This document shows positions 507-47,550 of a stretch of DNA of 64,000 nt, piece after piece. Both the position numbers and the translations under genes were made by a program. This DNA comes from Nitrospira defluvii (GTDB lineage Bacteria > Nitrospirota > Nitrospiria > Nitrospirales > Nitrospiraceae): positions 1,449,501-1,513,500 of the forward strand of contig FP929003.1 of assembly GCA_000196815.1 (NCBI GenBank), read 5' to 3'. Numbering within the stretch: position 1 is the first letter of the stretch; the number at the start of each line of letters is the position of its first letter. Under the pieces are notes generated by a model. It worked only from the letters and a program-made list of their open reading frames with translations. It was not told the DNA's origin and did not search any database.

Positions 507-1817
507 TCATGATGCGTCGGCGGGAACGAGCGAGGCGGAGCGTTGGCCGCTGAGAATGGCGGACTCCAGATTGGCCGGCCAGCCGGTGTCCGTCCAGGCG
601 CCGGCGACGAGAAAGTTGGCAAACGGACTGGGTGAGAGCGGTCGGCATTGTTGCATGCCCGGTCTGGTGGCCAGGATGGCCGACGGGAGACGAACGACGT
701 CCGCCTCGATGAGCCTGGGAAGCGGGCCGCCGGGGAACGCTTTCTCCATGTCTCTCAGGGTCAGTTGAACGAGGTCGTCTTTTGATTGGGGCAACAGGTC
801 CGGCTCGTCGACTGCGGCGGCCCACAATACCGTTGCCTGCTCGTGCCGTTCCTCGTCTGCGTGCCGGATCATCCAATGAAACCGGTTGCGCTCCAGCAGG
901 ACGAGTTGTGTGTGTTCGACCGGTTGCGCCAGGTGCAGGCGAACGATCACCAGAGGTGACTCGCTCAGGCGGCTGATTTGCTGGAAATAGGCATAGTGCG
1001 TCACGACCCGTTCCGGCAAGAGCGGCGTGAGTCGATGGTGCGGCAGCGCGGAGATATACCAATCGGCGGTGAGCCGCGTGCGGTCTGCCAGTTCGACATG
1101 GGCGACACGATCCTGGGTGAAGTGCAATTGCGTCACCGTCGTGTTCACCCGCGATCGAACTCCTATCCGGTCAAGCTCCGCTCGAAGCGGCGTGAGCAAG
1201 AATGAATCGAGTCCGTGAGGCGGAATGATCAACTTCGTGGCGCGGGCACCCGTCAGAAAGCAGCGTCGCAGTGTGCGCATGAAGAGCCCTGCGGAGACCT
1301 GTGGAAGCGCCGCCCCCAGCAACAAGCGGGCAAGGCTGTTCCAGACACCGTGCCGGGCCTGTTCCGACTGGCCGATGCTCGCGAGCCACTCGTCGGCCGC
1401 TCGTGTGTCGAGATCGTTCGGCAACGGAGGATCCTGTTCCCATGTGCGTTCAAGGAAGGAGAGGAGATGCCAGCGGTCCCGCATCGACAGACCCTGGAAC
1501 AAGGTGGTTCCAAGGAGTGTGTTGAGCGGGGACGGCAGGGGAAGGTGCAGAAACTGGATCCGAGCGCCCGTCGCCTGAAGAAATTCAAGCGGGGTATGTC
1601 GAAGCCGTCTGGCGGCAGTGTCTTTGCCGAGGGTCTTGAGCAGCGACCAGGTGGCTGCGTGGGCTTCGAGGAGCAGCGGGGGCGGCGCTTGGCACAGTCG
1701 CCCTCCCAGGCGGTCGGCCTGCTCGATCACGGTGACAGTATGACCGTCGGCGGCGAGGTGCAAGGCTGCCGTCAAACCGGCGATCCCGCCGCCGAGGATG
1801 AGCACCGTCCGGTTCAT
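507..1817 (-). CDS. hpnE: Hydroxysqualene dehydroxylase HpnE (squalene-associated FAD-dependent desaturase)
   Basis: Flavoprotein that reduces hydroxysqualene to squalene in the HpnCDE route to hopanoids. The N-terminus RTVLILGGGIAGLTAALHLA is a textbook FAD-binding Rossmann motif (GxGxxG), followed by VIEQADRLGGRL. The C-terminus FLVAGAWTDTGWPANLESAI is the conserved amine-oxidase-type FAD end. I place the start at ATG 1817 (MNRTVL) rather than 1850 because it overlaps the hpnD stop in an ATGA arrangement, which indicates translational coupling. The product is 436 residues, typical for the family. The gene directly follows hpnD, which supports the specific HpnE assignment over a generic desaturase. 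Confidence 0.92.
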   Translation of the reverse strand: MNRTVLILGGGIAGLTAALHLAADGHTVTVIEQADRLGGRLCQAPPPLLLEAHAATWSLLKTLGKDTAARRLRHTPLEFLQATGARIQFLHLPLPSPLNTLLGTTLFQGLSMRDRWHLLSFLERTWEQDPPLPNDLDTRAADEWLASIGQSEQARHGVWNSLARLLLGAALPQVSAGLFMRTLRRCFLTGARATKLIIPPHGLDSFLLTPLRAELDRIGVRSRVNTTVTQLHFTQDRVAHVELADRTRLTADWYISALPHHRLTPLLPERVVTHYAYFQQISRLSESPLVIVRLHLAQPVEHTQLVLLERNRFHWMIRHADEERHEQATVLWAAAVDEPDLLPQSKDDLVQLTLRDMEKAFPGGPLPRLIEADVVRLPSAILATRPGMQQCRPLSPSPFANFLVAGAWTDTGWPANLESAILSGQRSASLVPADAS

Positions 1818-13312: not shown

Positions 13313-13512
13313 TCCAGATCCCTCCTGTCGTGAACCAGCTCACGTACAGCAGGTATTGTATGGCAGGTCGGTTGATCGGAATAGCAAAGACAGAATTTCT
13401 GCAGCCGTCCAGGCCGGTGTATCCAGGTGCCTCCTAGCAATGTGTTGCCAAACGGTATGACGACCCCCGAAATGAAGTGCTCCTATACACGAAGACAGAA
13501 CCGAAATGCCCC

Positions 13513-13749
13513 GCAGGCAGTTAAGCAAGGCCGTTCAGCAAGGCCGCAGCCATGCGAAGAGGCGAGGCGTACATTCTTGCGCACCCTCCCCGAGCCTGCC
13601 AAGACAGGCTCTTGTCCCGTAGCGGTAGGGTGAGCCTGTGAGGTTCACGACGCGCGGAATCACGCGCGTCACGTTGGTGAACGCCGCCGAGACGGTGAGG
13701 CGGCAGTGTCCTGCGAGAACGCCGCTGGCGGACTGTATCAACAGCCTGC
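13513..13749. repeat. Dispersed inverted-repeat element, copy A
   Basis: Occupies most of the gap 13,313-13,748. Ends are inverted copies of GCAGGCWGTT (13513 and 13749). The right end read on the minus strand contains TCCGCCAGCGGCGTTCTCGC, nearly identical to the copies at 42,901 and 47,249, and the other end carries a GCTGCGGCCTTGCTGA-type segment shared with copy B. Internal hairpins occur at 13592-13611 and around 13650-13670. The stop codon of the 13749-13988 gene sits exactly at the element edge. The remaining bases 13313-13512 show nothing recognisable. Confidence 0.6.
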
Positions 13750-13988
13750 TATCGGTCTGCCTGTCCGCCGAGTTTGAGCACCAGGTAGGGCGTGAGGTAA
13801 TAACACACGACTGAAATCATCACGCCCGCCGCGGCGCCGATTAACCCGCGCACATAGACGCCGAAGAACGGGAGCAGGAACACGAGCAGGATCATCGCCA
13901 CTGCGATGCGCGTATGCCGTTCATAGAAGGCGGTGCGTCTCGCCGGAGTGAGCGAGTCGGAGAAAGAGACGGGAGATGGCACTGCCAT
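13749..13988 (-). CDS. Small two-helix membrane protein
   Basis: A 79-residue product from ATG 13988 (MAVPSPVSFSDSL); the longer frame to 14063 has an unlikely Cys/Arg-rich extension. Two hydrophobic helices (about 27-45 and 48-72: AVAMILLVFLLPFFGVYV and AAAGVMISVVCYYLTPYLVL) suggest an inner-membrane hairpin. No family recognised. Its TAG stop coincides with the edge of repeat copy A, which may therefore shape the transcript end. Confidence 0.6.
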   Translation of the reverse strand: MAVPSPVSFSDSLTPARRTAFYERHTRIAVAMILLVFLLPFFGVYVRGLIGAAAGVMISVVCYYLTPYLVLKLGGQADR

Positions 13989-14082
13989 GAGAGTGCGCCT
14001 ATTCCTTTTTTGCCGGATTGCGTGTAAGAACGTGCATCCCCGACATCCACGGGGCGTATTCATTTAACACGGGAGGCTGGGT

Positions 14083-16960: not shown

Positions 16961-19696
16961 GTGACCATGCAGGCTGACTACTTCCACTACTGGGGCAAAG
17001 CCGACGAGAAATATGTCGGCGCAACGACCTGGCATCCGCTGGTGTATCACAGCTTGGATGTGGCGGCCTGTGGGCATGCATTGCTTACTGTACAACCAAG
17101 TTGGCTCAGGACGATGCAGCGGTTGTCAGGGCTTCGTTCTGAAATTTTGCAACAATGGATCATATTTCTGCTTGCTATCCACGATGCAGGCAAGTTCAGC
17201 GACGGGTTCCAATTTCTACGGCCTGATTTGTGGAAGATACTACATGGGCGAACCGATAAGGCTCGGTATGGAGAACGCCATGACACTCTGGGCTATGAAT
17301 TGACGCTTGCAAACTTGTCCCAGTGGCTCAGGCAACCTGATTTAGCCAAACGAAGCGGGCAATGCCTGCAGCCTTGGTTAGCGTCTGTGACTGGTCATCA
17401 TGGGAAGCCGCCCAAGAACCTCTCAAAGGGGGATTCGGCGATGCTCCTGAGAGATCATTATCCTGTTCATGTGAGGAACGACGTCAAACAGTTCATCCTC
17501 GAAACACAAAATCTGTTGATGTCACAAGATTTTCAATGGACAGCGTTATTAGAGGGACAAGTGGAGCGGTATAGGCAAGCCTCTTGGATGCTTTCAGGGC
17601 TTGCAGTAACCGCCGATTGGTTGGGCTCAAACACACGCTGGTTTCCCTATCACAAACCAGACGTAGACATAACAGAGTACTGGAACACAATCGCATTGCC
17701 TGGCGCACAAAAGGCCATCGTTGAGAGTGGGTTAGGGTCTACCACAGCTCACTTTCCAGGAATCGGGAAGCTGTTCCCTCACATCAGTTCCTCAACGCCG
17801 CTACAAGCTTGGGCCGAGACGGTTCAAATGCATGCCGGGCCACAACTGTTTGTGCTGGAAGATCTCACAGGGTCAGGAAAGACTGAGGCCGCGTTAACAC
17901 TGGCGGCCCGGTTGATGGCAGCCGGAGAGGGCCAAGGTATCTACCTCGGTCTTCCTACAATGGCCACGGCGGATGCCATGTTTGACCGGGTGAAGAGAGG
18001 TGAGGGGTGGAAGCGGTTTTTTGCAGATGAACATGCTCAGCTTGCTTTGGCACACTCTGCCGATCGGCTGAAGCTTCGACTGGAAGAAGCGAATCGTCGA
18101 GATCATGGGTATGGAACAACCGAGGAACAATCCGCCTCCCAATCCTGTACGGCGTGGTTGGCTGATAACCGCAAGAAAGCCCTGTTGGCAGATTTTGGTG
18201 TCGGAACGTTGGATCAAGCTTTACTTGCGGTGCTCCCTCGGCGACATCAGTCGATCCGGTTATTAGGGCTGGCTGACAAAGTGCTGATTGTAGATGAGGT
18301 TCATGCCTGTGATGCCTATATGGGCGAACTGCTTTCTCGGCTGCTGCAATTTCATGCCGCATTGGGAGGTTCTGTTATCCTCCTGTCGGCAACGCTTCCA
18401 TTGGCTCAGCGCGCCCGCTATATCAAAGCATTTGCGGAAGGGGCAGAAATCACTGCTGCACGTCCGAAAGAAACCGCCTATCCATTAGCATGTCAATTTT
18501 CAGTAAACGGGTTTGTCGAACAGCCACTTGCACCTCGATCAGAATGTGTCCGACGAGTCAGTGTGCAAGCACTCCATGAGGAACCAAAGGTTTTGGAACA
18601 GCTACACGACGCTCTTATCCAAGGGCGCTGTGTTGTATGGGTGCGCAATACTGTGGCCGATGCGGTGGAAAGCTGGAAGACTTGGAATTCCACCTATCCC
18701 GAATATCCGGCAACCGTGTTTCATGCCCGCTTTGCTCTCGTTGATCGCCTACGGATCGGTAAAGAAATCGATACCGCTTTTGGTCCCAAGAGCACTGCTG
18801 CCGCAAGGTCTGGGAAATTGGTCATTGCCACTCAAGTTATCGAGCAATCCTTAGACGTAGACTTCGATGATATGGTGACCGACCTCGCGCCGATTGACTT
18901 GATCGTTCAACGAGCCGGACGGTTACAACGGCATCTGCGCGGGGCTGACGGAAATCGATTGGCCGAACCGGGAGCTTCCGATGGACGCGGCGGAGCACGA
19001 CTAGGCGTATTCATGCCTGTGCCTGTCGAAGATGCAGGGAAGGGATGGATGAGGGACTTGTTGCCGAAAGGGGGAAAAGTCTATCCCGATCACGGAAAGC
19101 TTTGGCTCACCGCACGCTGGCTTATGCAACATGAAGGGTTTGATTTACCGAGGCAAGCGCGAGACATGCTGGAAACTGTGTATGACGAGGCGGCTTTCGA
19201 TGGGTTGCCTGAAGGGTTGAAGGATGTCGCACTGAAAGTAGATGGTGTCTGCCGTGCAGACCAGGGAATTGCCCGCAGTAATGTATTGGCATTTGACGAA
19301 GGCTATAGTTCCACGAGTTTCCAATGGCAAGACGAAGACGAAGCGCCTACTCGACTTGGTGAAAAAACCGTACGAGTCCGTCTGGGATGCTTAGTTGACG
19401 GAATTCTCCGACCTTGGGCACAAACCACAACTGGTATGGAATGGGCCTTGTCCGAATTGAGCATCCCGTGTCGATTGATTGCGAAAGAGAGCGAGCGTAT
19501 GGCCGCATGGCTGGCAACAGCAAGAATGGTTATGCCGGATGAAGGCCGCTATGTCGTGATCGTTGCATTGGAGAGATATGGTGAAGCCTGGTGCGGTTAT
19601 GCAAGGAACCAGGAGGATCAAGAGGTGCGAGTGACGTACTCGTCTCTCGTTGGCTTGGCAGTGGACAAGGGAGTGAGTGATGAATCTGATCTATGA
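16961..19696 (+). CDS. cas3: CRISPR-associated helicase/nuclease Cas3, type I-E
   Basis: HD nuclease plus superfamily-2 helicase that degrades DNA recruited by Cascade. The HD domain (about 1-220) has HPLVYHSLDVAACGH and IHDAGKFSDGFQ. The helicase (about 290-750) has EDLTGSGKTEAAL (Walker A, about 303), LGLPTMATADAMFDRV, KVLIVDEVHACDAYMG (DEVH, about 445), ILLSATLP and QVIEQSLDVDFD...IQRAGRL-type motif V/VI. At 911 residues it is full length. The start may be GTG 16961 or ATG 16967. Its 3' end overlaps cas8e by 17 bp. Base composition is visibly less GC-rich than in the flanking chromosome. Confidence 0.96.
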   Translation: MTMQADYFHYWGKADEKYVGATTWHPLVYHSLDVAACGHALLTVQPSWLRTMQRLSGLRSEILQQWIIFLLAIHDAGKFSDGFQFLRPDLWKILHGRTDKARYGERHDTLGYELTLANLSQWLRQPDLAKRSGQCLQPWLASVTGHHGKPPKNLSKGDSAMLLRDHYPVHVRNDVKQFILETQNLLMSQDFQWTALLEGQVERYRQASWMLSGLAVTADWLGSNTRWFPYHKPDVDITEYWNTIALPGAQKAIVESGLGSTTAHFPGIGKLFPHISSSTPLQAWAETVQMHAGPQLFVLEDLTGSGKTEAALTLAARLMAAGEGQGIYLGLPTMATADAMFDRVKRGEGWKRFFADEHAQLALAHSADRLKLRLEEANRRDHGYGTTEEQSASQSCTAWLADNRKKALLADFGVGTLDQALLAVLPRRHQSIRLLGLADKVLIVDEVHACDAYMGELLSRLLQFHAALGGSVILLSATLPLAQRARYIKAFAEGAEITAARPKETAYPLACQFSVNGFVEQPLAPRSECVRRVSVQALHEEPKVLEQLHDALIQGRCVVWVRNTVADAVESWKTWNSTYPEYPATVFHARFALVDRLRIGKEIDTAFGPKSTAAARSGKLVIATQVIEQSLDVDFDDMVTDLAPIDLIVQRAGRLQRHLRGADGNRLAEPGASDGRGGARLGVFMPVPVEDAGKGWMRDLLPKGGKVYPDHGKLWLTARWLMQHEGFDLPRQARDMLETVYDEAAFDGLPEGLKDVALKVDGVCRADQGIARSNVLAFDEGYSSTSFQWQDEDEAPTRLGEKTVRVRLGCLVDGILRPWAQTTTGMEWALSELSIPCRLIAKESERMAAWLATARMVMPDEGRYVVIVALERYGEAWCGYARNQEDQEVRVTYSSLVGLAVDKGVSDESDL

Positions 19697-21242
19697 GTCA
19701 TGGATTCCGGTCAAACGACAGGATGGGACACGTGAAAAAGTCGCACCTTGGCGCATAACCGATTTCACGGAGGGCAAGAGCCCAATTGTTGCGATTGCCT
19801 CTCCGCGTCCTGATTTTGACGGCGCGCTTGTCCAGTTTCTAATTGGGCTACTGCAAACCACCTGCACCCCCAGTGAGAGTGGATGGTGGGATTGGCGAGA
19901 AAAACCGCCATCGCCGAAGACATTGTGCGAGCGCTTTGCGACAGTGGAACGAGCCTTCGAGATACAGGGCAAGACGGCATTCATGCAGGATTGGACATCT
20001 TCTGATTTGAGTAAGGAACTGAATGTTTCGGACCTCTTAATCGAAGCCCCTGGGGAGAAGACGCAAAAAGATAACACGGATCACTTCATTAAACGTGGGC
20101 GAGTAGAGCAGATGTGTTTGCTATGTGCGGCAACTGCACTTTTCACCCTCCAGACTAATGCCCCTTCTGGTGGCCAGGGACATCGGACTAGCCTACGTGG
20201 CGGAGGGCCGCTGTGTACGCTGGTGCTCGGTGATACCCTTTGGGAGACTTGTTGGCGAAATGTTTTGATGGACGCACGTTATTATGCCGCTGCTGACCCA
20301 GACAAGTTTGGTGAAGCAGACCGTTTTCCTTGGCTTGCGAGAACGCGCACGAGCGAACCGGCTTCACCAACAAAAACTACTGGACCTGTCGATGTTCATC
20401 CTGATCAACAATTCTGGGGTATGCCAAGGCGTATCCGACTACAGATTCGAGACCTTGAGAAGCCATCTTGCTGTGATCTTTGCGGGGCAGAGGCCAGGAA
20501 AGTGTGTCGCCACGCTGTTACGAAAAATTATGGCGTGAACTATGAAGGCTTTGCACACCCCTTAAGTCCGCATTATGTGAAAGACGGTGTCCCTAATCCG
20601 GTGCATCCACAACCTGGCGGTGTCGGCTATCGACATTGGCTTGGGCTTGTGGAAAACAGCATGGACGGAAACCTTGAGCGTCGGCCTGCCAAGGTCATCG
20701 AACAGTTCCGTTCTGTAGTACGAGAAGACGCGCGACTATGGGCATTTGGTTTCGATATGGACAATATGAAGGCTCGTTGTTGGTATGACGCCATTATGCC
20801 GATCCTTGCCGTACCGAGCGAAATGCATGAGGTATTCAAAGGACAGGTGGAACGGCTGGTTCGTGGGGCTAGTTGGGTTGCTCAGATCCTGCGCTGGCGA
20901 ATCAAGGATGTTTTGCTTGCGCAAGACGATAATCGTGGCGATCTCTCCTTTATTCAGAACCATTTCTGGGCTTCAACGGAATCAACATTTTACGAACACA
21001 TTCGGCATTTGCGGGACATCTTATCTATGTCGAAAGGAGAGGTAGCTGTGCTGGAAAGCTGGCATGCAGCTCTCCGTGTGGCAGCATTCTCCGTGTTTGA
21101 CCACTATGCTCAAGTTGGGGATTTCGATGGCGCTGATCCAAGACGGATAGCGAAAGCCCGTAATGACCTAAAGAAGGCGCTCAATGATAAGAAACTGCGC
21201 CAACTCCTTGGACTCTCTCAGCCCGTTCATCAAAAATCCTGA
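19680..21242 (+). CDS. cas8e: Cascade large subunit Cas8e (Cse1/CasA)
   Basis: PAM-recognising large subunit of the type I-E surveillance complex. It opens NLIYESWIPVKRQDG as Cse1 proteins do and includes LVQFLIGLLQTT, the zinc-site-like CCDLCGAEARKVC stretch (around residue 265), FAHPLSPHYVKDG and the C-terminal four-helix region. It is 520 residues, normal for Cse1. ATG 19680 is taken as the start because the preceding in-frame GTG adds only one residue. It overlaps cas3 and is followed after 18 bp by cse2. Confidence 0.95.
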   Translation: MNLIYESWIPVKRQDGTREKVAPWRITDFTEGKSPIVAIASPRPDFDGALVQFLIGLLQTTCTPSESGWWDWREKPPSPKTLCERFATVERAFEIQGKTAFMQDWTSSDLSKELNVSDLLIEAPGEKTQKDNTDHFIKRGRVEQMCLLCAATALFTLQTNAPSGGQGHRTSLRGGGPLCTLVLGDTLWETCWRNVLMDARYYAAADPDKFGEADRFPWLARTRTSEPASPTKTTGPVDVHPDQQFWGMPRRIRLQIRDLEKPSCCDLCGAEARKVCRHAVTKNYGVNYEGFAHPLSPHYVKDGVPNPVHPQPGGVGYRHWLGLVENSMDGNLERRPAKVIEQFRSVVREDARLWAFGFDMDNMKARCWYDAIMPILAVPSEMHEVFKGQVERLVRGASWVAQILRWRIKDVLLAQDDNRGDLSFIQNHFWASTESTFYEHIRHLRDILSMSKGEVAVLESWHAALRVAAFSVFDHYAQVGDFDGADPRRIAKARNDLKKALNDKKLRQLLGLSQPVHQKS

Positions 21243-21260
21243 TTTCATGAGGAGATGTTC

Positions 21261-21806
21261 ATGAGCCACACAACGAAACCAGACAATCCCTTTCCCCAAG
21301 GCAAATCCGACCATCCGTCCTTTAATGTTCTCAAGATGTGGTGGCAGGCACTGGAGTCAAACCGAGGCGAACGTGCCGCCCTGCGTCGGGCGGCCAGCCT
21401 CACCGAGGTGATGCTGAGCCCGGCTTTTCACCGGCTGCTCCATTCTTTACAGCGGGAAGGGTATGGAGTGGCGGAGTACCGTTATCCTAAGCTCGCTGCT
21501 ATCGCCGGATTGGCGGCACGGGTCAAGACGGAAACATCCGAGACGCTTGCTACCCGCATGGGCAACCCCAAGAGCGGAGGCGATAAAGCTGCCATGTCTG
21601 ACTTGCGGGTGCGGCGTGTGCTCGCCTGCGACGAAGTAGAGGAGCTGTATACTCTATTGCGACGAGCACTTGCCTTGCTTGGCGATCAGGCGAACTTGTC
21701 AGACCTTGCTGCGACACTCTGGCACTGGTCACCGATGGACGAAAAGCGCCCAAACGATCCGCGTCGTCGAATGGCCTACGATTACTACGCTGCGACACCA
21801 CTGTAA
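21261..21806 (+). CDS. cse2: Cascade small subunit Cse2 (CasB/Cas11e)
   Basis: Helical small subunit that dimerises along the Cascade belly and stabilises the R-loop. The sequence shows MWWQALESNRGERAALRRA and PAFHRLLHSL, then the VRRVLACDEVEELYTLLRRAL segment typical of Cse2, and a DYYAAT-type end. A GAGGAG motif just before 21255 favours ATG 21261 (MSHTTKPDN) over 21255. It is 181 residues, as expected, and fits the gene order cas8e-cse2-cas7e. Confidence 0.93.
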   Translation: MSHTTKPDNPFPQGKSDHPSFNVLKMWWQALESNRGERAALRRAASLTEVMLSPAFHRLLHSLQREGYGVAEYRYPKLAAIAGLAARVKTETSETLATRMGNPKSGGDKAAMSDLRVRRVLACDEVEELYTLLRRALALLGDQANLSDLAATLWHWSPMDEKRPNDPRRRMAYDYYAATPL

Positions 21807-21837
21807 TTAAATCGGTATTTAACGGAGGGAATGCACG

Positions 21838-23034
21838 ATGACAACTTTTCTGCAATTGCATCTCTTAACCAGCTACCCGCCCGCTTGCCTCAATCGTGAT
21901 GACCTCAACAGGCCGAAGACAGCGATGATGGGAGGTGTGCCGAGACTGCGGGTGTCGTCCCAGAGCCTCAAGCGCACGTGGCGTATTTCGGAGGTCTTCC
22001 ATGAAAAGGTCAATGAGCAAATGGGCATACGCTCTAAGGAGCTTGGCCTTCGCATCAAGGACGCCTTATTGACCGGGGTTGCCTTGACTGACCTGTTGAA
22101 CCTCGGCGTATCGAGAACTGAGTCGGATGGCAAAGTATCCGAGAAGAACGCGTCGGAATGGGCATGGATGATCGCAGGGGAATTTGTGGACAAGAAAAGC
22201 AAGGGTGGTGATGGAGAAACTGAGGACGAGGAATCGAAGGATAAGGGCAAGAAAAAAACAAAGAAATCCAACGTCAGCAAGGAAACGCTCAAGAGCGAAC
22301 AGATTGTCTTTTATTCGCAAAAGGAGATTGAGGCTCTGGTCATGCTGATTCAGAGTTTGCGCGAGAGCGGCAAGGCACCCTCTGCGGAGCAACTTAGTGC
22401 CATCAAGGCGAAAGAGGCTCAGGGCACTGCGGACTTGGCCTTATTTGGGAGAATGCTTGCGTCGAGTCCAGATTTCAACGTCGAAGCCGCCTGTCAGGTC
22501 GCCCACGCCATCACTGTCCACCGTGCTGCTGTGGAGGACGACTTCTTTACTGCAGTGGATGATCTCAACACCCACGAGGAAAATGCTGGTTCTGCGCATA
22601 TGGGTGAACAGGGCTTTGGAGCGGGGCTGTTTTATAGCTACGTGTGCATAGACTGCGATTTGTTGAGGGAAAATTTGGGCGGCGATGCTGGGTTGACGGA
22701 GAGCGCAATCAGAGCCTTAGTTGAAGCTGCTGCCACAGTCGCCCCCACCGGGAAGCAAAATAGCTTCGCTAACCGGGCATGGGCACCCTACGTGCTTGCC
22801 GAAAAAGGAAACCGTCAGCCGCGAGGGCTCTCATTGGCATTCATGAAACCGGTCAACGAATACGGTGAAGGTATGCTCGTCAATGCCGTATCGGCGCTCG
22901 ACACGATGCGCACGAACCTGGATAAGGTGTATCACAATGGTCAACCATTACCGAGTAAGAGTATTAACGCGCTGAAAGGTGAAGGCGACTTCCAAGTGCT
23001 GCTTAACTTTGCCGCTGGGAACGGAGGTGTGTAA
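21838..23034 (+). CDS. cas7e: Cascade backbone Cas7e (Cse4/CasC)
   Basis: Forms the six-copy RNA-binding backbone of Cascade. It starts FLQLHLLTSYPPACLNRDD and has GVPRLRVSSQSLKRTWR, the classical Cas7e region. Residues about 115-150 form a highly charged Lys/Glu/Asp-rich insertion (KKSKGGDGETEDEESKDK and onwards) that lengthens the protein to 398 residues against about 360 in E. coli. The C-terminal half (TVAPTGKQNSFANRAWAPYV) is well conserved. Its TAA overlaps the cas5e ATG by one base. Confidence 0.95.
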   Translation: MTTFLQLHLLTSYPPACLNRDDLNRPKTAMMGGVPRLRVSSQSLKRTWRISEVFHEKVNEQMGIRSKELGLRIKDALLTGVALTDLLNLGVSRTESDGKVSEKNASEWAWMIAGEFVDKKSKGGDGETEDEESKDKGKKKTKKSNVSKETLKSEQIVFYSQKEIEALVMLIQSLRESGKAPSAEQLSAIKAKEAQGTADLALFGRMLASSPDFNVEAACQVAHAITVHRAAVEDDFFTAVDDLNTHEENAGSAHMGEQGFGAGLFYSYVCIDCDLLRENLGGDAGLTESAIRALVEAAATVAPTGKQNSFANRAWAPYVLAEKGNRQPRGLSLAFMKPVNEYGEGMLVNAVSALDTMRTNLDKVYHNGQPLPSKSINALKGEGDFQVLLNFAAGNGGV

Positions 23035-23834
23035 TGCACGACTACCTCGTGTTTCAGCTGTACGGGCCGATAGCAGCGTGGGGTGACATTGCGGTAGGAG
23101 AGACGCGGCCCTCAACAATGACGCCGAGTAAATCTGCTGTGGTCGGGCTGGTAGCTGCCGCACTAGGGTTACGGCGGCCGGATACTGCTCAGACTGAAGC
23201 ACAACGCTCTGAATGGGAGTTGGATCACCTCGCTTTAGCAGATGGTTATGGTATGGCGATCAAAGTGGATGCCGTTGGTGTACCGCTCACTGATTATCAC
23301 ACTGTGCAAGTGCCCTCTTCCGGAACTGGCCGGAACCGCCAGTTCTTTGCTACACGTCGGGATGAATTGAATCGCGGCCCTAAAAGCGATCTCAATACAA
23401 TCCTTTCCCGCCGAGAGTATCGACAAGACGTCTATTATGCCATTGCGCTATGGGCCCGATCACAGGCCCCACATACGTTGCGTGAATTACGTCAGGCCTT
23501 ACTGGAACCTCGTTTTGTCCTCTATCTGGGTCGCAAGTCCTGCCCCCTTGGGCTCCCACTTCACCCAGAGATCAAGCAAGGGGAAACGATAGAAGCGGTA
23601 TTGGCCAACCTGTCTATTGAAAATGTTCTGTCGCAGTTGGTCGAAGCTGGTGGTGGAAGCGGAAGGCGTAAGAGTGGCCAGGGAATCCAGCAGGATTTGC
23701 CTTTGCTTGTGTGGGATAGCGATGCCGAAACTGGTTTATCCCCGGAACAGACCATCACCAGACGAGACGCCTCAACCTCTCGCCGGCGATGGCAGTTCGC
23801 AACACGAGAAGAACACCAAGCTTATCTCAGGTAG
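23034..23834 (+). CDS. cas5e: Cascade subunit Cas5e (CasD)
   Basis: Binds the 5' handle of the crRNA. The sequence starts DYLVFQLYGPIAAWGDIAVG and carries RPSTMTPSKSAVVGLVAAALG, the thumb-forming segment of Cas5e; the C-terminal region has FVLYLGRKSCPLGLPLHP. It is 266 residues. The start is fixed by the TAATG overlap with cas7e. The stop is 10 bp before cas6e. Confidence 0.95.
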   Translation: MHDYLVFQLYGPIAAWGDIAVGETRPSTMTPSKSAVVGLVAAALGLRRPDTAQTEAQRSEWELDHLALADGYGMAIKVDAVGVPLTDYHTVQVPSSGTGRNRQFFATRRDELNRGPKSDLNTILSRREYRQDVYYAIALWARSQAPHTLRELRQALLEPRFVLYLGRKSCPLGLPLHPEIKQGETIEAVLANLSIENVLSQLVEAGGGSGRRKSGQGIQQDLPLLVWDSDAETGLSPEQTITRRDASTSRRRWQFATREEHQAYLR

Positions 23835-23844
23835 GAAGGTTAGC

Positions 23845-24543
23845 ATGGAAATGTCTGCAAATTGGCTTTCTCGTATCTCGCTCAGAGGGGATGTTGGCTG
23901 TAAACAATTGGTTGGAATGGGAGAGCTTGACCTGTACGGCCAACATCGAGCGTTATGGAAGCTGTTCACCGTGGCACCAGAAGACCGCACAGAACGAGCA
24001 GAATTCCTTTTTCGCGCGGAACGTAAAGGATCGGTGCCGGTATTTTATGTGCTCTCCCGCCAACAGCCTATAGATCGTGCTGGTTTGTGGCACATTGAGA
24101 GCAAGCCATATCGGCCAGTTCTTAATGAGGGCGATCGTCTTGCTTTTAAGTTGCGTGTAAACCCGGTTGTAACTCGCAGGACCGAGGTGAATAAGCGCAG
24201 GAAGCGCCATGATGTGGTGATGGATGCAAAGTGTCAGTTGAATTGGAATGCTCTTCCCACGGATCAGCGTCCAGCGCTAGCGGATATCGTTCACAAGGCT
24301 GGTGTGACTTGGCTTCAGGCACGTGCGGAACGTCTTGGATGCAGCTTTCTCGAAGACTCAATCAGAGTTGATGGTTACCAGACTTGGCGCCAATCAGGTC
24401 TCAAAGGGATTGAGTTGTCCACTCTCGATTTTGACGGCATTCTGGCTATTACAGATCCTCATCGCTTTAGTGCTGCGCTAGTAGAAGGTGTCGGCCCCGC
24501 CAAAGGCTTTGGCTGTGGACTGTTGCTGGTCCGTCGTCTGTGA
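23845..24543 (+). CDS. cas6e: CRISPR RNA endonuclease Cas6e (CasE)
   Basis: Cleaves the repeat hairpin to make crRNAs. ATG 23845 is preceded by AGGAAGG and gives 232 residues. GQHRALWKLF (His34) is the catalytic-His segment of Cas6e. The C-terminal GVGPAKGFGCGLLLVRRL is the Gly-rich loop and terminal strand diagnostic of the Cas6/RAMP fold. The longer frame from 23617 runs inside cas5e and is not real. The crRNA repeat it would cut has a 6-bp CCCCGC/GTGGGG stem. Confidence 0.94.
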   Translation: MEMSANWLSRISLRGDVGCKQLVGMGELDLYGQHRALWKLFTVAPEDRTERAEFLFRAERKGSVPVFYVLSRQQPIDRAGLWHIESKPYRPVLNEGDRLAFKLRVNPVVTRRTEVNKRRKRHDVVMDAKCQLNWNALPTDQRPALADIVHKAGVTWLQARAERLGCSFLEDSIRVDGYQTWRQSGLKGIELSTLDFDGILAITDPHRFSAALVEGVGPAKGFGCGLLLVRRL

Positions 24544-24567
24544 TGTGGGTGGTCTTGGAGCGACTGC

Positions 24568-25783
<1,216 letters not shown>

Positions 25784-25860
25784 GGCTCCACAGAGTGAAA
25801 TTGAGCGGTAGGTTTTAGGGACAAGAAATTGTCCTGCTACATCAATCTCTTGTAGGAAGT
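25784..25860 (+). promoter_or_regulatory. CRISPR leader with IHF-like site
   Basis: The 77 bases between the cas2 stop and the first repeat. ATCAATCTCTTG at 25841-25852 matches the IHF consensus core (ATCAA-N4-TTR), the position used by IHF for leader-proximal integration in type I-E systems. GGACAA-GAAA-TTGTCC (25819-25834) forms a short hairpin. The diverged repeat lies at the far end of the array, consistent with this being the leader side. Confidence 0.7.
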
Positions 25861-27601
25861 GTGTTCCCCGCGCGAGTGGGGATGAACCGGAGGATACCCA
25901 GATGGCGAGAACACTACTCACGTGTTCCCCGCGCGAGTGGGGATGAACCGGAGATGTCGGTTTTAATGCGCGTCGTCACCGTGTGTTCCCCGCGCGAGTG
26001 GGGATGAACCGCAGGGGTCGAGGTATCCGAGCCGGACCAATCCGTGTTCCCCGCGCGAGTGGGGATGAACCGCTGGTAGTCGCTGGCGAGATCCCGAAGG
26101 TTAGGTGTTCCCCGCGCGAGTGGGGATGAACCGTTGTCTGTGATGAATACACATCCGATAGGAGTGTGTTCCCCGCGCGAGTGGGGATGAACCGGTCATT
26201 GATTTTGCAGGTGCCACGTGGGAATTGTGTTCCCCGCGCGAGTGGGGATGAACCGTCACAGATGTAGATGGTTTGTGAGGCGGTGAGGTGTTCCCCGCGC
26301 GAGTGGGGATGAACCGCCAGACAGGAAATCTCTAGTGGATTCACTGTCGTGTTCCCCGCGCGAGTGGGGATGAACCGTACCTCCTTCTTGCCCGGAACGT
26401 CCACGCCACGGTGTTCCCCGCGCGAGTGGGGATGAACCGCAATTTCAGGATACGGAACCTTAATCAAGCGAGTGTTCCCCGCGCGAGTGGGGATGAACCG
26501 ACGGGGGCGCCGCCGCGAATATCGCGACGCTCGTGTTCCCCGCGCGAGTGGGGATGAACCGCGGCATGTGGGAGTTGAACGCCCGCCGATTCGCGTGTTC
26601 CCCGCGCGAGTGGGGATGAACCGGCTACGTCCGGGTTCCGATCTATTGCGTATCAGTGTTCCCCGCGCGAGTGGGGATGAACCGAAATAGCATGTTCTCT
26701 CTCGCCACAGCAGAAAGTGTTCCCCGCGCGAGTGGGGATGAACCGCCATAGAAAAAGAGACCGGGAAACCGCTGGACGTGTTCCCCGCGCGAGTGGGGAT
26801 GAACCGAATTTGTAGGACTTCGGGTTGACGTTGAGCACGTGTTCCCCGCGCGAGTGGGGATGAACCGATGACGGAGGGCCATTTGAATATCCCGTATATG
26901 TGTTCCCCGCGCGAGTGGGGATGAACCGGAAACGGTTCTTCCGCGTACCCCTTCGCCTTTGTGTTCCCCGCGCGAGTGGGGATGAACCGGGCGAGACGGA
27001 ATCGGAACCGTCGTCCGTGGTGTGTTCCCCGCGCGAGTGGGGATGAACCGAGCGGGACGCATGGGGTTGCGGCTGGCAGCATGTGTTCCCCGCGCGAGTG
27101 GGGATGAACCGAACTGATGCGCGTGCCGACTTCTGATCTCGTGCGTGTTCCCCGCGCGAGTGGGGATGAACCGCGCGAATGCGGTACTGTGCAAATGGGT
27201 GCCTGTGTGTTCCCCGCGCGAGTGGGGATGAACCGGAAGAGCAGTTTCTCTCTGAGGGCGATGCTGTGTGTTCCCCGCGCGAGTGGGGATGAACCGCAAC
27301 TTCGCCGGATCCTCGTCTTGGGTGACGCGTGTTCCCCGCGCGAGTGGGGATGAACCGACCGGTAGGGCCTGCTCCGGAGCCCACCGTTTGTGTTCCCCGC
27401 GCGAGTGGGGATGAACCGGCTAGCCGTAAATGAGTTGACATACGGGGTGTGTGTGCCCCGCGCGAGTGGGGATGAACCGCCCCCAGAAGAGCCGCGTCTG
27501 TGGCGCGAAGAGTGTTCCCCGCGCGAGTGGGGATGAACCGAGTCCTTTCGGGTTGTTGGTTATACAGGAATCGTGTTCCCCGCGCGAGTGGGGATGAACC
27601 G
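25861..27601 (+). CRISPR. Type I-E CRISPR array, 29 repeats and 28 spacers
   Basis: The 29-nt repeat begins GTGTT, continues with the stem CCCCGC, tetraloop GCGA and stem GTGGGG, and ends ATGAACCG. Twenty-nine copies start at 25861, 25922, 25983 and so on up to 27573. Period is 61 bp, with four spacers of 33 nt (after repeats 9, 12, 21 and 22) and the rest 32 nt. All repeats are identical except number 27 (27451), which has T to G at the fifth base. Spacers all look different from one another. Orientation follows the cas genes, with the leader at 25784-25860. A thirtieth repeat occurs at 28206. Confidence 0.98.
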
Positions 27602-28205
27602 CTTCTTGCCAGTCCCCTTCTGAACATCAATGACGATATTCGACAGGGTCTTTGAGGGCCCTCCAAGAATGGGGGCAACAGGAATGCGTGGGCGCGTGGG
27701 CAGTGGTTTCTTGGCCGCCTGATCCACGGCATCGAGGAAGGCGTTAGCCACCTCCTGTCCTTGCCGCTCCAGATCGGTGAGATGCTTCAGGGAAAGGCGC
27801 TCTCGCCTTGGGGGCGACACGGCTGGAATGGATTCGGGGGCGTCTCGCTGCGGAGAGCCGAAATCTGTAGGGGGTGCCTCTGAGGTGGAGGAAGCCTGAG
27901 TCGAATCAGGCCGGTCTGCTACGGCACTGTCTTCAGGCCGGGAAAAGCCTTTTGAAGATAGGCGACGTTCTCTCTGCTGACTCGACGCAGTTCGTCGAGT
28001 TCGGAGGGCGTCAGCATCTCGGAAGTGTCCGAGGTAGTTGGCCTCTGAGGCGGTGAGGGCTGCGGGATCGACTCCGAATGTCTCTCTGATGGCATCGCCA
28101 AACCTAGTTTCGAGCAGTCGTACAAGCGTGCGTGACGGCGTCAGTATCCCACCGCGAGACGCATTTGTCAAAGTCACGACGTCGACCACCTGTCCGCCGT
28201 GGCTC
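27602..28205 (-). pseudogene. 604-bp internal gene fragment lying between two intact CRISPR repeats
   Basis: The interval between repeat 29 and the isolated repeat 30 is 604 bp instead of 32. One minus-strand frame stays open from one repeat to the other, without a start or stop of its own; it reads through into both repeats. The translation includes RTLVRLLETRFGDAIRETFG near one end, a Ser/Pro/Arg-rich middle and HLTDLERQGQEVANAFLDAV near the other, so it looks like an internal piece of a real coding sequence. I do not recognise the protein. A second minus frame (27919-28125) also has protein-like sequence, so a frameshifted gene cannot be excluded. Confidence 0.6.
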
Positions 28206-28234
28206 GTGTTCCCCGCGCGAGTGGGGATGAACCG
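28206..28234 (+). CRISPR. Isolated thirtieth CRISPR repeat
   Basis: A perfect copy of the 29-nt array repeat in the same orientation, 604 bp beyond the end of repeat 29. No further repeat follows at the 61-bp period; the sequence after it looks like coding DNA. Confidence 0.95.
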
Positions 28235-28379
28235 GAGTCATTGGCTGATGATCTTAAAGCCGCATTTTTGGATATGGGAGGCGATGCGGTTACTCCTGAA
28301 TGGCTTAGCGAGATCGCATCAAGCCTCGCTAGTGATAAGAAGCTTGCATATGGTTTTATGCTGCAGTGGAAGGCGAAAG
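28235..28379 (+). pseudogene. Start-less coding fragment abutting the last repeat
   Basis: Immediately after repeat 30 one plus frame reads ESLADDLKAAFLDMGGDAV, then TPEWLSEIASSLASDKKL and AYGFMLQWKAKAG with no start codon of its own. It is less GC-rich than the surroundings. The similarity to a genuine protein appears to end near 28375, where the toxin remnant begins in another frame. Source unknown. Confidence 0.45.
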
Positions 28380-36339: not shown

Positions 36340-36488
36340 TGAAACGTACCACGTCAATCGTGAAACGCGGCCAGGGAGAAATAAGAGCCTCTGGTTCGTA
36401 GCGTGTAGCAAAGACGCCCGCTCTCGCCTGCCGGCCGGAGGCTCTTGTCTGCGGACGGGAGACGAACGACGTTCACGAACGACGGACT

Positions 36489-42646: not shown

Positions 42647-42910
42647 ATGGTCACGATCCACCTGTTCGGCATGACCAAGATGTTGGCCGGTAACCAAGGG
42701 ACGCTGTCGCTGTCGCTGCACGACGGGAAACGGGTCAAGGACCTGGTGTCGGTGATCGATGCCGCCTATCCGAAGATCGGCGAATTGTTGCAGAAGAAAA
42801 AGGTGCTGGTGTCGGTTAATCAAGAGATCGCACACGAGGATCTTGAAGTGAAAGATGGGGACGAAATTGCCTTGCTCCCGCCCTTTGCGGGCGGAAGTGA
42901 AGGATGCTGA
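42647..42910 (+). CDS. moaD: Molybdopterin synthase sulfur carrier MoaD with extra C-terminal residues
   Basis: Ubiquitin-like small subunit that carries sulfur as a C-terminal thiocarboxylate. The fold signatures are VTIHLFGMTKMLAGNQG, VNQEIAHEDLEVKDGDEIALLPPFAGG. MoaD proteins normally end in Gly-Gly; here GG is followed by Ser-Glu-Gly-Cys before TGA. The last bases of the gene (from 42901) are also the first bases of repeat copy B, which suggests the tail was created by its insertion. Thiocarboxylation would require trimming or a second carrier. Length 87 residues. Confidence 0.88.
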   Translation: MVTIHLFGMTKMLAGNQGTLSLSLHDGKRVKDLVSVIDAAYPKIGELLQKKKVLVSVNQEIAHEDLEVKDGDEIALLPPFAGGSEGC

Positions 42911-43021
42911 AACAGGCTGCCGGCGTCGTTCTCGCTGTGGGCGTCGGCTCAACGTACCCACAGGGTACGCCTCATTTTCGTGCTCGCTGCGGCCTTGCTG
43001 AGCAGGTTCTGTGAGCATCCT
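42901..43021. repeat. Dispersed inverted-repeat element, copy B
   Basis: Begins AGGATGCTGAAACAGGCTGC and ends with the inverted AGCATCCT at 43014-43021. The GCCGGCGTCGTTCTCGC segment near the left end and the GCTGCGGCCTTGCTGAGC segment near the right end match copy A. It overlaps the last codons and the stop of moaD. Confidence 0.65.
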
Positions 43022-46411: not shown

Positions 46412-47248
46412 ATGGCATGGTTTAAAAAAGGTAAAACCGAGGAGGCAGAGCCCCCCAAACGCTCCAAAGTGGCAGAGGGGATGTGGCTCAAGTGTAATCA
46501 CTGCCGGGAGATCGTGTATCGCAAGGAGGTGGACCGGAACAATAAGGTCTGTCCGAAGTGCGACTATCACTTTCCCATTTCGGTGATTGAACGCATCAAT
46601 CTCCTGGTCGACCTCGGGACCTTCAAAGAGTGGGATGCCGAGCTGGAGCCGCAAGACCCGCTCCAGTTTCAGGATACCCGTACGTATAAAGACCGGACTA
46701 AGGCGCAACAGGAAAAGACCGGCCGTAAAGACGCCATGGTCATCGGCCAGGGGGCGATCAACGGGCGCAAGGTGGCCCTGTGCGTCTTCGATTTCGGGTT
46801 CATGGGCGGCAGTATGGGGTCGGTCGTCGGTGAAAAGATCTGTCGCGCCGTCGATCGGGCATTGGAAGGGCGCATGCCGTTGATCCTCGTGACGGCATCG
46901 GGCGGCGCCCGCATGCAGGAGGGCATCCTGTCGCTCATGCAGATGGCCAAGACGTCCGCAGCGGTCGCGAAGTTGGGAGAGGCGAAGGTGCCGTTCATCT
47001 CCATCTTGGCGGACCCGACGTTCGGCGGAGTGACCGCGAGCATCGCGATGCTGGGAGACGTCATTATTGCCGAGCCGAAGGCTCTGATCGGGTTTGCCGG
47101 TCCGCGCGTCATCGAGCAAACCATCAAACAGCAATTGCCGGATCAGTTTCAGCGGGCCGAGTTCTTACTGGATCACGGCATGATCGACATGATCGTCGAA
47201 CGAAAACAGTTGAAGGAAGCGGTCAGCACCCTGGTCGGCCACTTCTGA
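46412..47248 (+). CDS. accD: Acetyl-CoA carboxylase carboxyltransferase subunit beta (AccD)
   Basis: Transfers carboxyl from biotin to acetyl-CoA, the first step of fatty-acid synthesis, with AccA. The N-terminal zinc finger is [15 protein letters not shown]...[13 protein letters not shown] (four Cys). The catalytic crotonase-like core includes [20 protein letters not shown] and [20 protein letters not shown], then [20 protein letters not shown]. 278 residues, complete. Its TGA is directly at the left end of repeat copy C. AccA is not in the window. Confidence 0.97.
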
Positions 47249-47453
47249 CAGGATGCGGAAAAAGTCTGCCAGCGGCGTTCTCGCCCTGCGTGAAGCGTAT
47301 CGCGTTGCGGGTAAGATCGTATGGCTGCTGGCTGAGAGCAAAGATGCCCATGCTCGATGGCTGGCCATACGATATGAGCCCTATGCCATGGGCCCTTTTC
47401 TGCGGACGAGAGACGAACGACGGACGGTGGGGACGACCTTTTTGCGCATCCTG
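47249..47453. repeat. Dispersed inverted-repeat element, copy C
   Basis: Begins CAGGATGCGGAAAAAGTCTG at the base after the accD stop and ends GACCTTTTTGCGCATCCTG at 47435-47453; the ends are inverted repeats of each other (15 of 19). GCCAGCGGCGTTCTCGCCC next to the left end is shared with copies A and B. The interior carries CGGACGAGAGACGAACGACG, also seen near 36,450. The remaining gap to folC (47454-47550) shows nothing else. Confidence 0.7.
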
Positions 47454-47550
47454 CTGGCATTCCACTTTCAGCATGCTACGTGACCTGATCCGGATGTCTG
47501 GTGCACAGGGGATTTTCCCGCAGTCTTCTAGCGCAGGCGAGTTCTCACGC

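Follow-up and report, generated by a model that had tools for sequence, protein, structure and literature searches.

Several families of short mobile repeats resemble the elements described here. Members of the IS5 family of insertion sequences encode a DDE transposase and duplicate a 4-bp Py-T-A-Pu target, of which CTAG is the commonest (PMC5493358). In Pseudomonas syringae, MITEPsy1 is a MITE flanked by a CTAG or YTAA 4-nt duplicate, with ends related to those of the IS5-family element ISPsy2, and its transposition was shown (PMC3189936). In Streptococcus pneumoniae, RUP, BOX and SPRITE are abundant intergenic MITE-like repeats; RUP is proposed to be moved by IS630-Spn1, and the modular BOX gives a stop codon to 36 annotated genes (PMC3049150). 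REPs of Escherichia coli that lie no more than 15 nt from a stop codon were reported to affect translation (PMC12306157).

The repeat family of Nitrospira defluvii analysed in this work is like MITEPsy1 in being a short MITE with the same type of 4-nt duplicate and with IS5-related ends, but MITEPsy1 is 100 nt long, has few copies and has other ends; the part of its account used here contains no relation to stop codons (PMC3189936). The duplicate type is also that of IS5, which, unlike the MITE, is autonomous; the terminal repeats of the Nitrospira family are CAGGCTGCGGAAAAA. RUP, BOX and SPRITE differ in their ends, families and targets and, unlike the Nitrospira repeat, are over-represented between convergent genes (PMC3049150). 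With the E. coli REPs the family shares hairpins near stop codons. The kind of element is thus a known one, and what appears from the sequences to be new is the family itself, the arithmetic that links its target to stop codons and the exchange of its loop modules. No description of it was found in the Nitrospira literature, as searched with thin coverage of subscription journals and ISfinder outside the search, and the repeat is apparently both abundant and unnamed.

Results

The source genome is a single contig of 4,317,083 bases, of which the 64,000 nucleotides from 1449501 to 1513500 constitute the window to which all coordinates given below as window positions refer. The original prediction described three repeats in this window that share a core and inverted ends and lie at the stop codons of a small membrane protein gene, moaD and accD. 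With up to 3 mismatches, the core was indeed found three times in the window, exactly at 13713-13729 (minus strand) and 47268-47284 (plus strand) and with 2 mismatches in the moaD copy (42919-42935), so that it is identical in two copies only. Since 4 of 100 shuffled sequences also reached three matches (chance mean 0.60), the window by itself is weak evidence. The genome-wide count, however, was decisive: allowing 2 mismatches, the core occurred 75 times, 32 of them exact, against 5 matches for the reversed pattern, and the ends TAGCAGGNTGCGGAAAAA gave 95 matches against 1 in the control. The three window copies therefore belong to one real family.

A full-length copy measures 199 bp, has the ends CAGG[A/C/T]TGCGGAAAAA and is flanked by perfect 4-bp YTAR duplicates, mostly CTAG. 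Pairing of the inverted ends, CAGGATGCGGAAAAA and CAGG[CT]TGCGGAAAAA, gave a standard element that starts with CAGGATGCGGAAAAAGTCC and finishes with ...GTTTTTCCGCA[A/G]CCTG; it is short and non-coding, as expected of a MITE. An internal inverted copy of the left end, at 123 bp, gives rise to a long hairpin. In the source genome 16 copies were exactly 199 bp long with identical flanking tetranucleotides, and the copies 2129502, 3504061 and 3529222 were identical over the 199 bp. Identical 4-bp duplicates flanked 20 of the 75 copies in this genome and 16 of the 26 copies recognised in relatives. At 35 perfect-duplicate sites from both sources, after sites without TA had been left out (one such in the source genome, CTGG), the tetranucleotide was CTAG 24 times, CTAA 5 times, TTAG 4 times and ATAG and GTAG once each. 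Some copies carry extra loop modules; at a loose threshold module A was found in 13 and module B in 6 of the 75 copies. At a similarly loose threshold, a GAGAGACGAACGACG-like string matched 7 of the 75 element regions.

The copy downstream of accD starts directly behind the stop codon (TGA, 47246-47248), as predicted, but does not end at 47453. This position is the last one of an internal inverted end (47439-47453). The element, with the left end CAGGATGCGGAAAAA, occupies 47249..47527 on the plus strand, its degenerate right end lying at 47509-47527, and is followed by the right target duplicate CTAG at 47528..47531. Its loop is an unrelated module in place of the original. The left duplicate (47245..47248) now reads CTGA, its last three bases being the accD stop. 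Because relatives show TAG, TAA or TGA at this position, we propose that the duplicate may have passed from CTAG to CTAA to CTGA, with a stop at every step. Part of the loop (47391-47422) is one copy of a second small repeat, GACGGGAGACGAACGACG-like, which also occurs at window positions 668-699 and 36440-36471.

The copy at 13.7 kb follows a gene on the minus strand (13749-14063) whose TAG stop occupies 13751-13749. The stop placement was predicted correctly, whereas the boundaries 13513-13749 should be moved: the element starts at 13748 and, judged from a CTAG at 13434-13437, probably extends to about 13438 (13438..13748, minus strand). It belongs to an older subfamily with the left end CAGGCTGTTGA and loop modules A and B, and its left target duplicate ATAG (13749..13752, minus strand) holds the stop of the upstream gene. 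The third copy, in the moaD-moaE gap (42901..43021, plus strand), is old and decayed and has no clear target duplication. It overlaps moaD as described, supplying the present TGA stop (42908-42910) about 8 bases within the element.

Genome-wide placement was examined with a purpose-built hexamer gene caller, trained on 35 long ORFs of the window, which misses short genes; one false call over a CRISPR array was removed by hand. Directly abutting an in-frame stop were 28 of the 75 copies, and for 41 a facing stop was no more than 15 nt away. Among the 13 within 15 nt that do not abut, inspection by eye suggests that decay accounts for some. Other genomes yielded 28 loci, 26 of them recognised, and 10 of these 26 abut a stop. 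The background comprised 568 YTAR sites, 264 of them genic; of the 304 non-genic sites 58 (0.19) were stop codons and 61 were within 15 nt of a stop, compared with 41 of 75 for the elements. A random spread relative to genes was thus not seen. Genes were avoided, since 1 of 35 young sites was classed as genic against 264 of the 568 background sites.

The strength of the stop-codon association depended on the null. A plain genome-wide expectation of 0.203 was exceeded both by all copies (28/75, P=5e-4) and by young sites (14/34, P=0.004). The stop share of non-genic YTAR sites is 0.19-0.25 genome-wide, but reaches 0.375 (39/104) in gaps of at most 400 bp. When each young site was compared with YTAR sites of its own gap (n=34, the single genic-classed site of 35 being set aside), 14 stop sites were observed and 12.4 expected (P=0.25). 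The effect of age was tested on 68 copies, after removal of seven (15711, 501177, 1108765, 2584059, 3047735, 3637133 and 3859630) with no recognisable right arm; the stop-abutting fraction is 23/68 without and 28/75 with these seven. Junction stops were as frequent in the half closer to the consensus (11/34) as in the other half (12/34), and these 68 copies therefore provide no evidence of longer retention at stop sites.

The site behind accD was inspected by eye in 29 genomes of the genus: an element was clear in 15, reduced to a fragment or eroded in seven and absent from seven. At least 10 of the 15 left-end letters were found directly 3' of the accD stop in 17 of the 29. In six of the seven element-free genomes the gap to the next gene was 27-28 nt. 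One empty site, G016 cacttCTAGgtcgaatgccc (sequence cacttcTAGgtcgaatgccc), matched a filled one, G001 cacttCTAG-[element]-CGAGgtcgaatgccc. Here the element lies between cacttcTAG and gtcgaatgccc, its right duplicate CGAG being one letter off CTAG. The G001 element is reversed in orientation (reverse core 14/17, reverse right arm 18/20), from which it follows that the CTAG of the accD stop was used at least twice. A test for a shared right tail in six genomes showed a common degenerate right end and flank in G000, G011, G023 and G028, with different loops and with stop-to-duplicate distances of 286, 318, 206 and 313 nt, respectively. We infer from this that these four carry one old insertion in which the loop was exchanged.

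Between moaD and moaE, an element was present at 11 of 30 loci from the 29 genomes, in one case as a short fragment, and at nine of these 11 the moaD stop was a TGA inside the element. MoaD of the window (42647-42910) ends in FAGG plus SEGC because of the element insertion. In element-free genomes FAGG is mostly followed by a short tail, for instance NR or SR; MoaD of Nitrospira thus has residues beyond the usual C-terminal GG. One genome, G007, has a pair of close moaD loci of which one carries the element and the other does not; given its listed contamination of 8%, it is probably a mixed assembly.

The source genome contains a 1,316-bp insertion sequence (2773274-2774589) with the ends of the MITE, TTAG on both sides and a 342-codon gene. 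The 342-aa product matches NCBIfam transpos_IS5_4 (E 4.5e-83, 278.9 bits, cut-off 140), which identifies it as an IS5-type DDE transposase, and also Pfam DUF772 and DDE_Tnp_1. It was the sole match in its own genome, where a single intact insertion sequence of this kind is present. Homologous versions of 1,314-1,317 bp with the same ends and CTAG/CTAG flanks were found in G020 (two copies) and G018; the MITE thus has its ends in common with an autonomous element. All four two-ended copies had YTAR duplicates, TTAG in the source genome and CTAG at the three in relatives. Of the 29 genus genomes, 17 had a transposase match with an E value of at most 0.001, in many cases a distant one. A second group of insertion sequences (L189-L192 and L210), about 43% identical, has the ends CAG[GT][CG]TGTTGACAAA and the duplicates CTAG, TTAG or ATAG; the duplicates of L210 differ by one letter and the two ends are slightly unlike in L191 and L210. 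This group may have small derivatives of its own.

Among 148 genomes of the phylum, a 24-nt core pattern was detected in 30, all within the 32 of the same bacterial family, and in none of the 116 outside. A 127-nt unit was present in each of the 29 genus genomes, with a weak match in G003. This genome, the one genus member that is nearly MITE-free, has 14 weak transposase matches that all score the same and apparently belong to another insertion sequence, one that has expanded. For a 28-nt stretch of the element, the named matches among those listed were labelled Nitrospira, Nitrospiraceae or Nitrospirae, and two (isolate NOB2) Nitrosospira.

Discussion

The predicted MITE-like, intergenic and genome-wide nature of the repeat is borne out by the 199-bp copies with inverted repeats at their termini, by the target duplicates and by the 75 genome-wide matches. 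Very probably, and in keeping with the insertion sequence sharing its ends, the family consists of non-autonomous MITEs of the IS5 type that a DDE transposase of the IS5 family moves in trans, targeted to YTAR and without recognition of stop codons. Movement in trans in vivo is suggested indirectly by the identical copies and by the filled and empty sites. Against this mobiliser stand the presence of just one intact insertion sequence in the source genome and the fact that 12 of the 29 genus genomes gave no significant transposase match, yet the 127-nt unit was found in all 29.

For the placement, we propose that the transposase cuts at YTAR. Where YTAR consists of Y and the TAG or TAA at a gene end, the 4-bp duplication would rebuild the stop; the insertion would then be neutral for the protein and the element tolerated because of this. 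Insertions within genes would be lost by selection. Since the same-gap null matches the observed placement, the target sequence, selection against genic insertion and short gaps would be sufficient, and recognition of the stop codon itself would be unnecessary. The predicted alternative of elements that target gene 3' ends or are tolerated there thus holds for the strong 3'-end association; the target, however, would be the YTAR tetranucleotide and not the stop. A caveat is that the excess at stops vanishes only with the short-gap or same-gap null, both obtained with the purpose-built gene caller. That excess over the plain genome-wide null could also mean that transposition is actively directed to gene 3' ends or stops, for example via terminator structure or translation termination. 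We consider this very unlikely, as there was no preference within the same gap and intergenic YTAR sites more than 15 nt from a stop were used as well (20/35).

It was also suggested that the elements may act as transcript terminators or stabilisers. They might be domesticated for this purpose and kept at gene ends by selection, and they do fold more stably than shuffled sequences (z −3.88 for the accD copy, −3.79 and −4.39 for the two strands of the canonical copy), with a GC-rich stem flanked by an A-tract and a T-tract on both strands. Good folding is to be expected of every element that has long inverted repeats, however, and the strong hairpin between left end and internal inverted copy may simply follow from the way the element is built. 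The T-tract takes part in the pairing of the stem, and a terminator consensus scan, restricted to loops of 3-8, found nothing in the accD copy and one small candidate in the canonical tail that is not the main hairpin; a promoter consensus scan of the elements found no promoter. Genes flanking 68 elements were convergent in 14, tandem in 43 and divergent in 7 cases, similar to the YTAR background (45, 126 and 33 of 304), so that convergent pairs (14/68 against 45/304) were not enriched. In both accD-folC and moaD-moaE the two genes run in the same direction, an arrangement in which a strong terminator would be expected to do harm, and several genomes have a partial or eroded element at accD. 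The covariation signal at the moaD-moaE site was weak. In eight orthologues (of ten extracted hairpins, the short-loop ones of G027 and G005 being left out and the G004 fragment not being among those extracted), 94.4% of cells pair against 92.2% in shuffles and both-side changes affect 8 cells against 4.4, but the number of pairs changed on both sides, 3, equals the shuffled value of 3.0. An Rfam search of three loci returned one chance-level match only (E 0.44). Selection as terminators or stabilisers is an improbable explanation, and neither the scans nor gene orientation bore out the suggested terminator function.

By likeness to the E. coli REPs (PMC12306157), an effect on the upstream gene is possible, and the 28 of 75 copies starting directly at a stop and the 41 within 15 nt would be well situated for it. 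That these hairpins regulate translation of that gene is nevertheless improbable, since the placement follows from the target sequence and the accD element is eroded in several genomes. A kinship with REP elements, implied by the label REP/MITE-like, has to be abandoned. Short hairpins, many copies and two Y1_Tnp genes in the genome would fit mobilisation by a RAYT, but inverted repeats at the termini, combined with 4-bp duplicates of the target, are, to our knowledge, not RAYT features; E. coli REPs, as far as we know, have neither and depend on another mobiliser. No family end lies beside either Y1 gene, L076 having only one 3-mismatch core match, and we regard a Y1 origin as practically negligible.

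The IS5-type MITE targeted to YTAR offers a simple, testable reason for placement at stop codons, namely a target containing TAG or TAA together with a duplication by which it is restored. This reasoning should extend to any YTAR- or CTAG-targeting element, IS5 included, in genomes with few CTAG inside genes. Stop-proximal hairpins alone are no evidence of regulation. As a speculation to which we give little weight, the MITE population might form a modular 3'-UTR system in Nitrospiraceae, in which CTAG insertion puts strong hairpins on the stops of many genes, loop cassettes are exchanged between copies in place and some loci gain regulated transcript ends. In practical terms, the repeat affects the annotation of gene ends in Nitrospira genomes.

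Elsewhere in the window, the CRISPR array (25849-27602) has some 29 repeats (GTGTTCCCCGCGCGAGTGGGGATGAACCG), a single repeat being set apart at 28194-28235; judged by their size and order, the large ORFs at 16961-25783 may be a type I-E cas operon.
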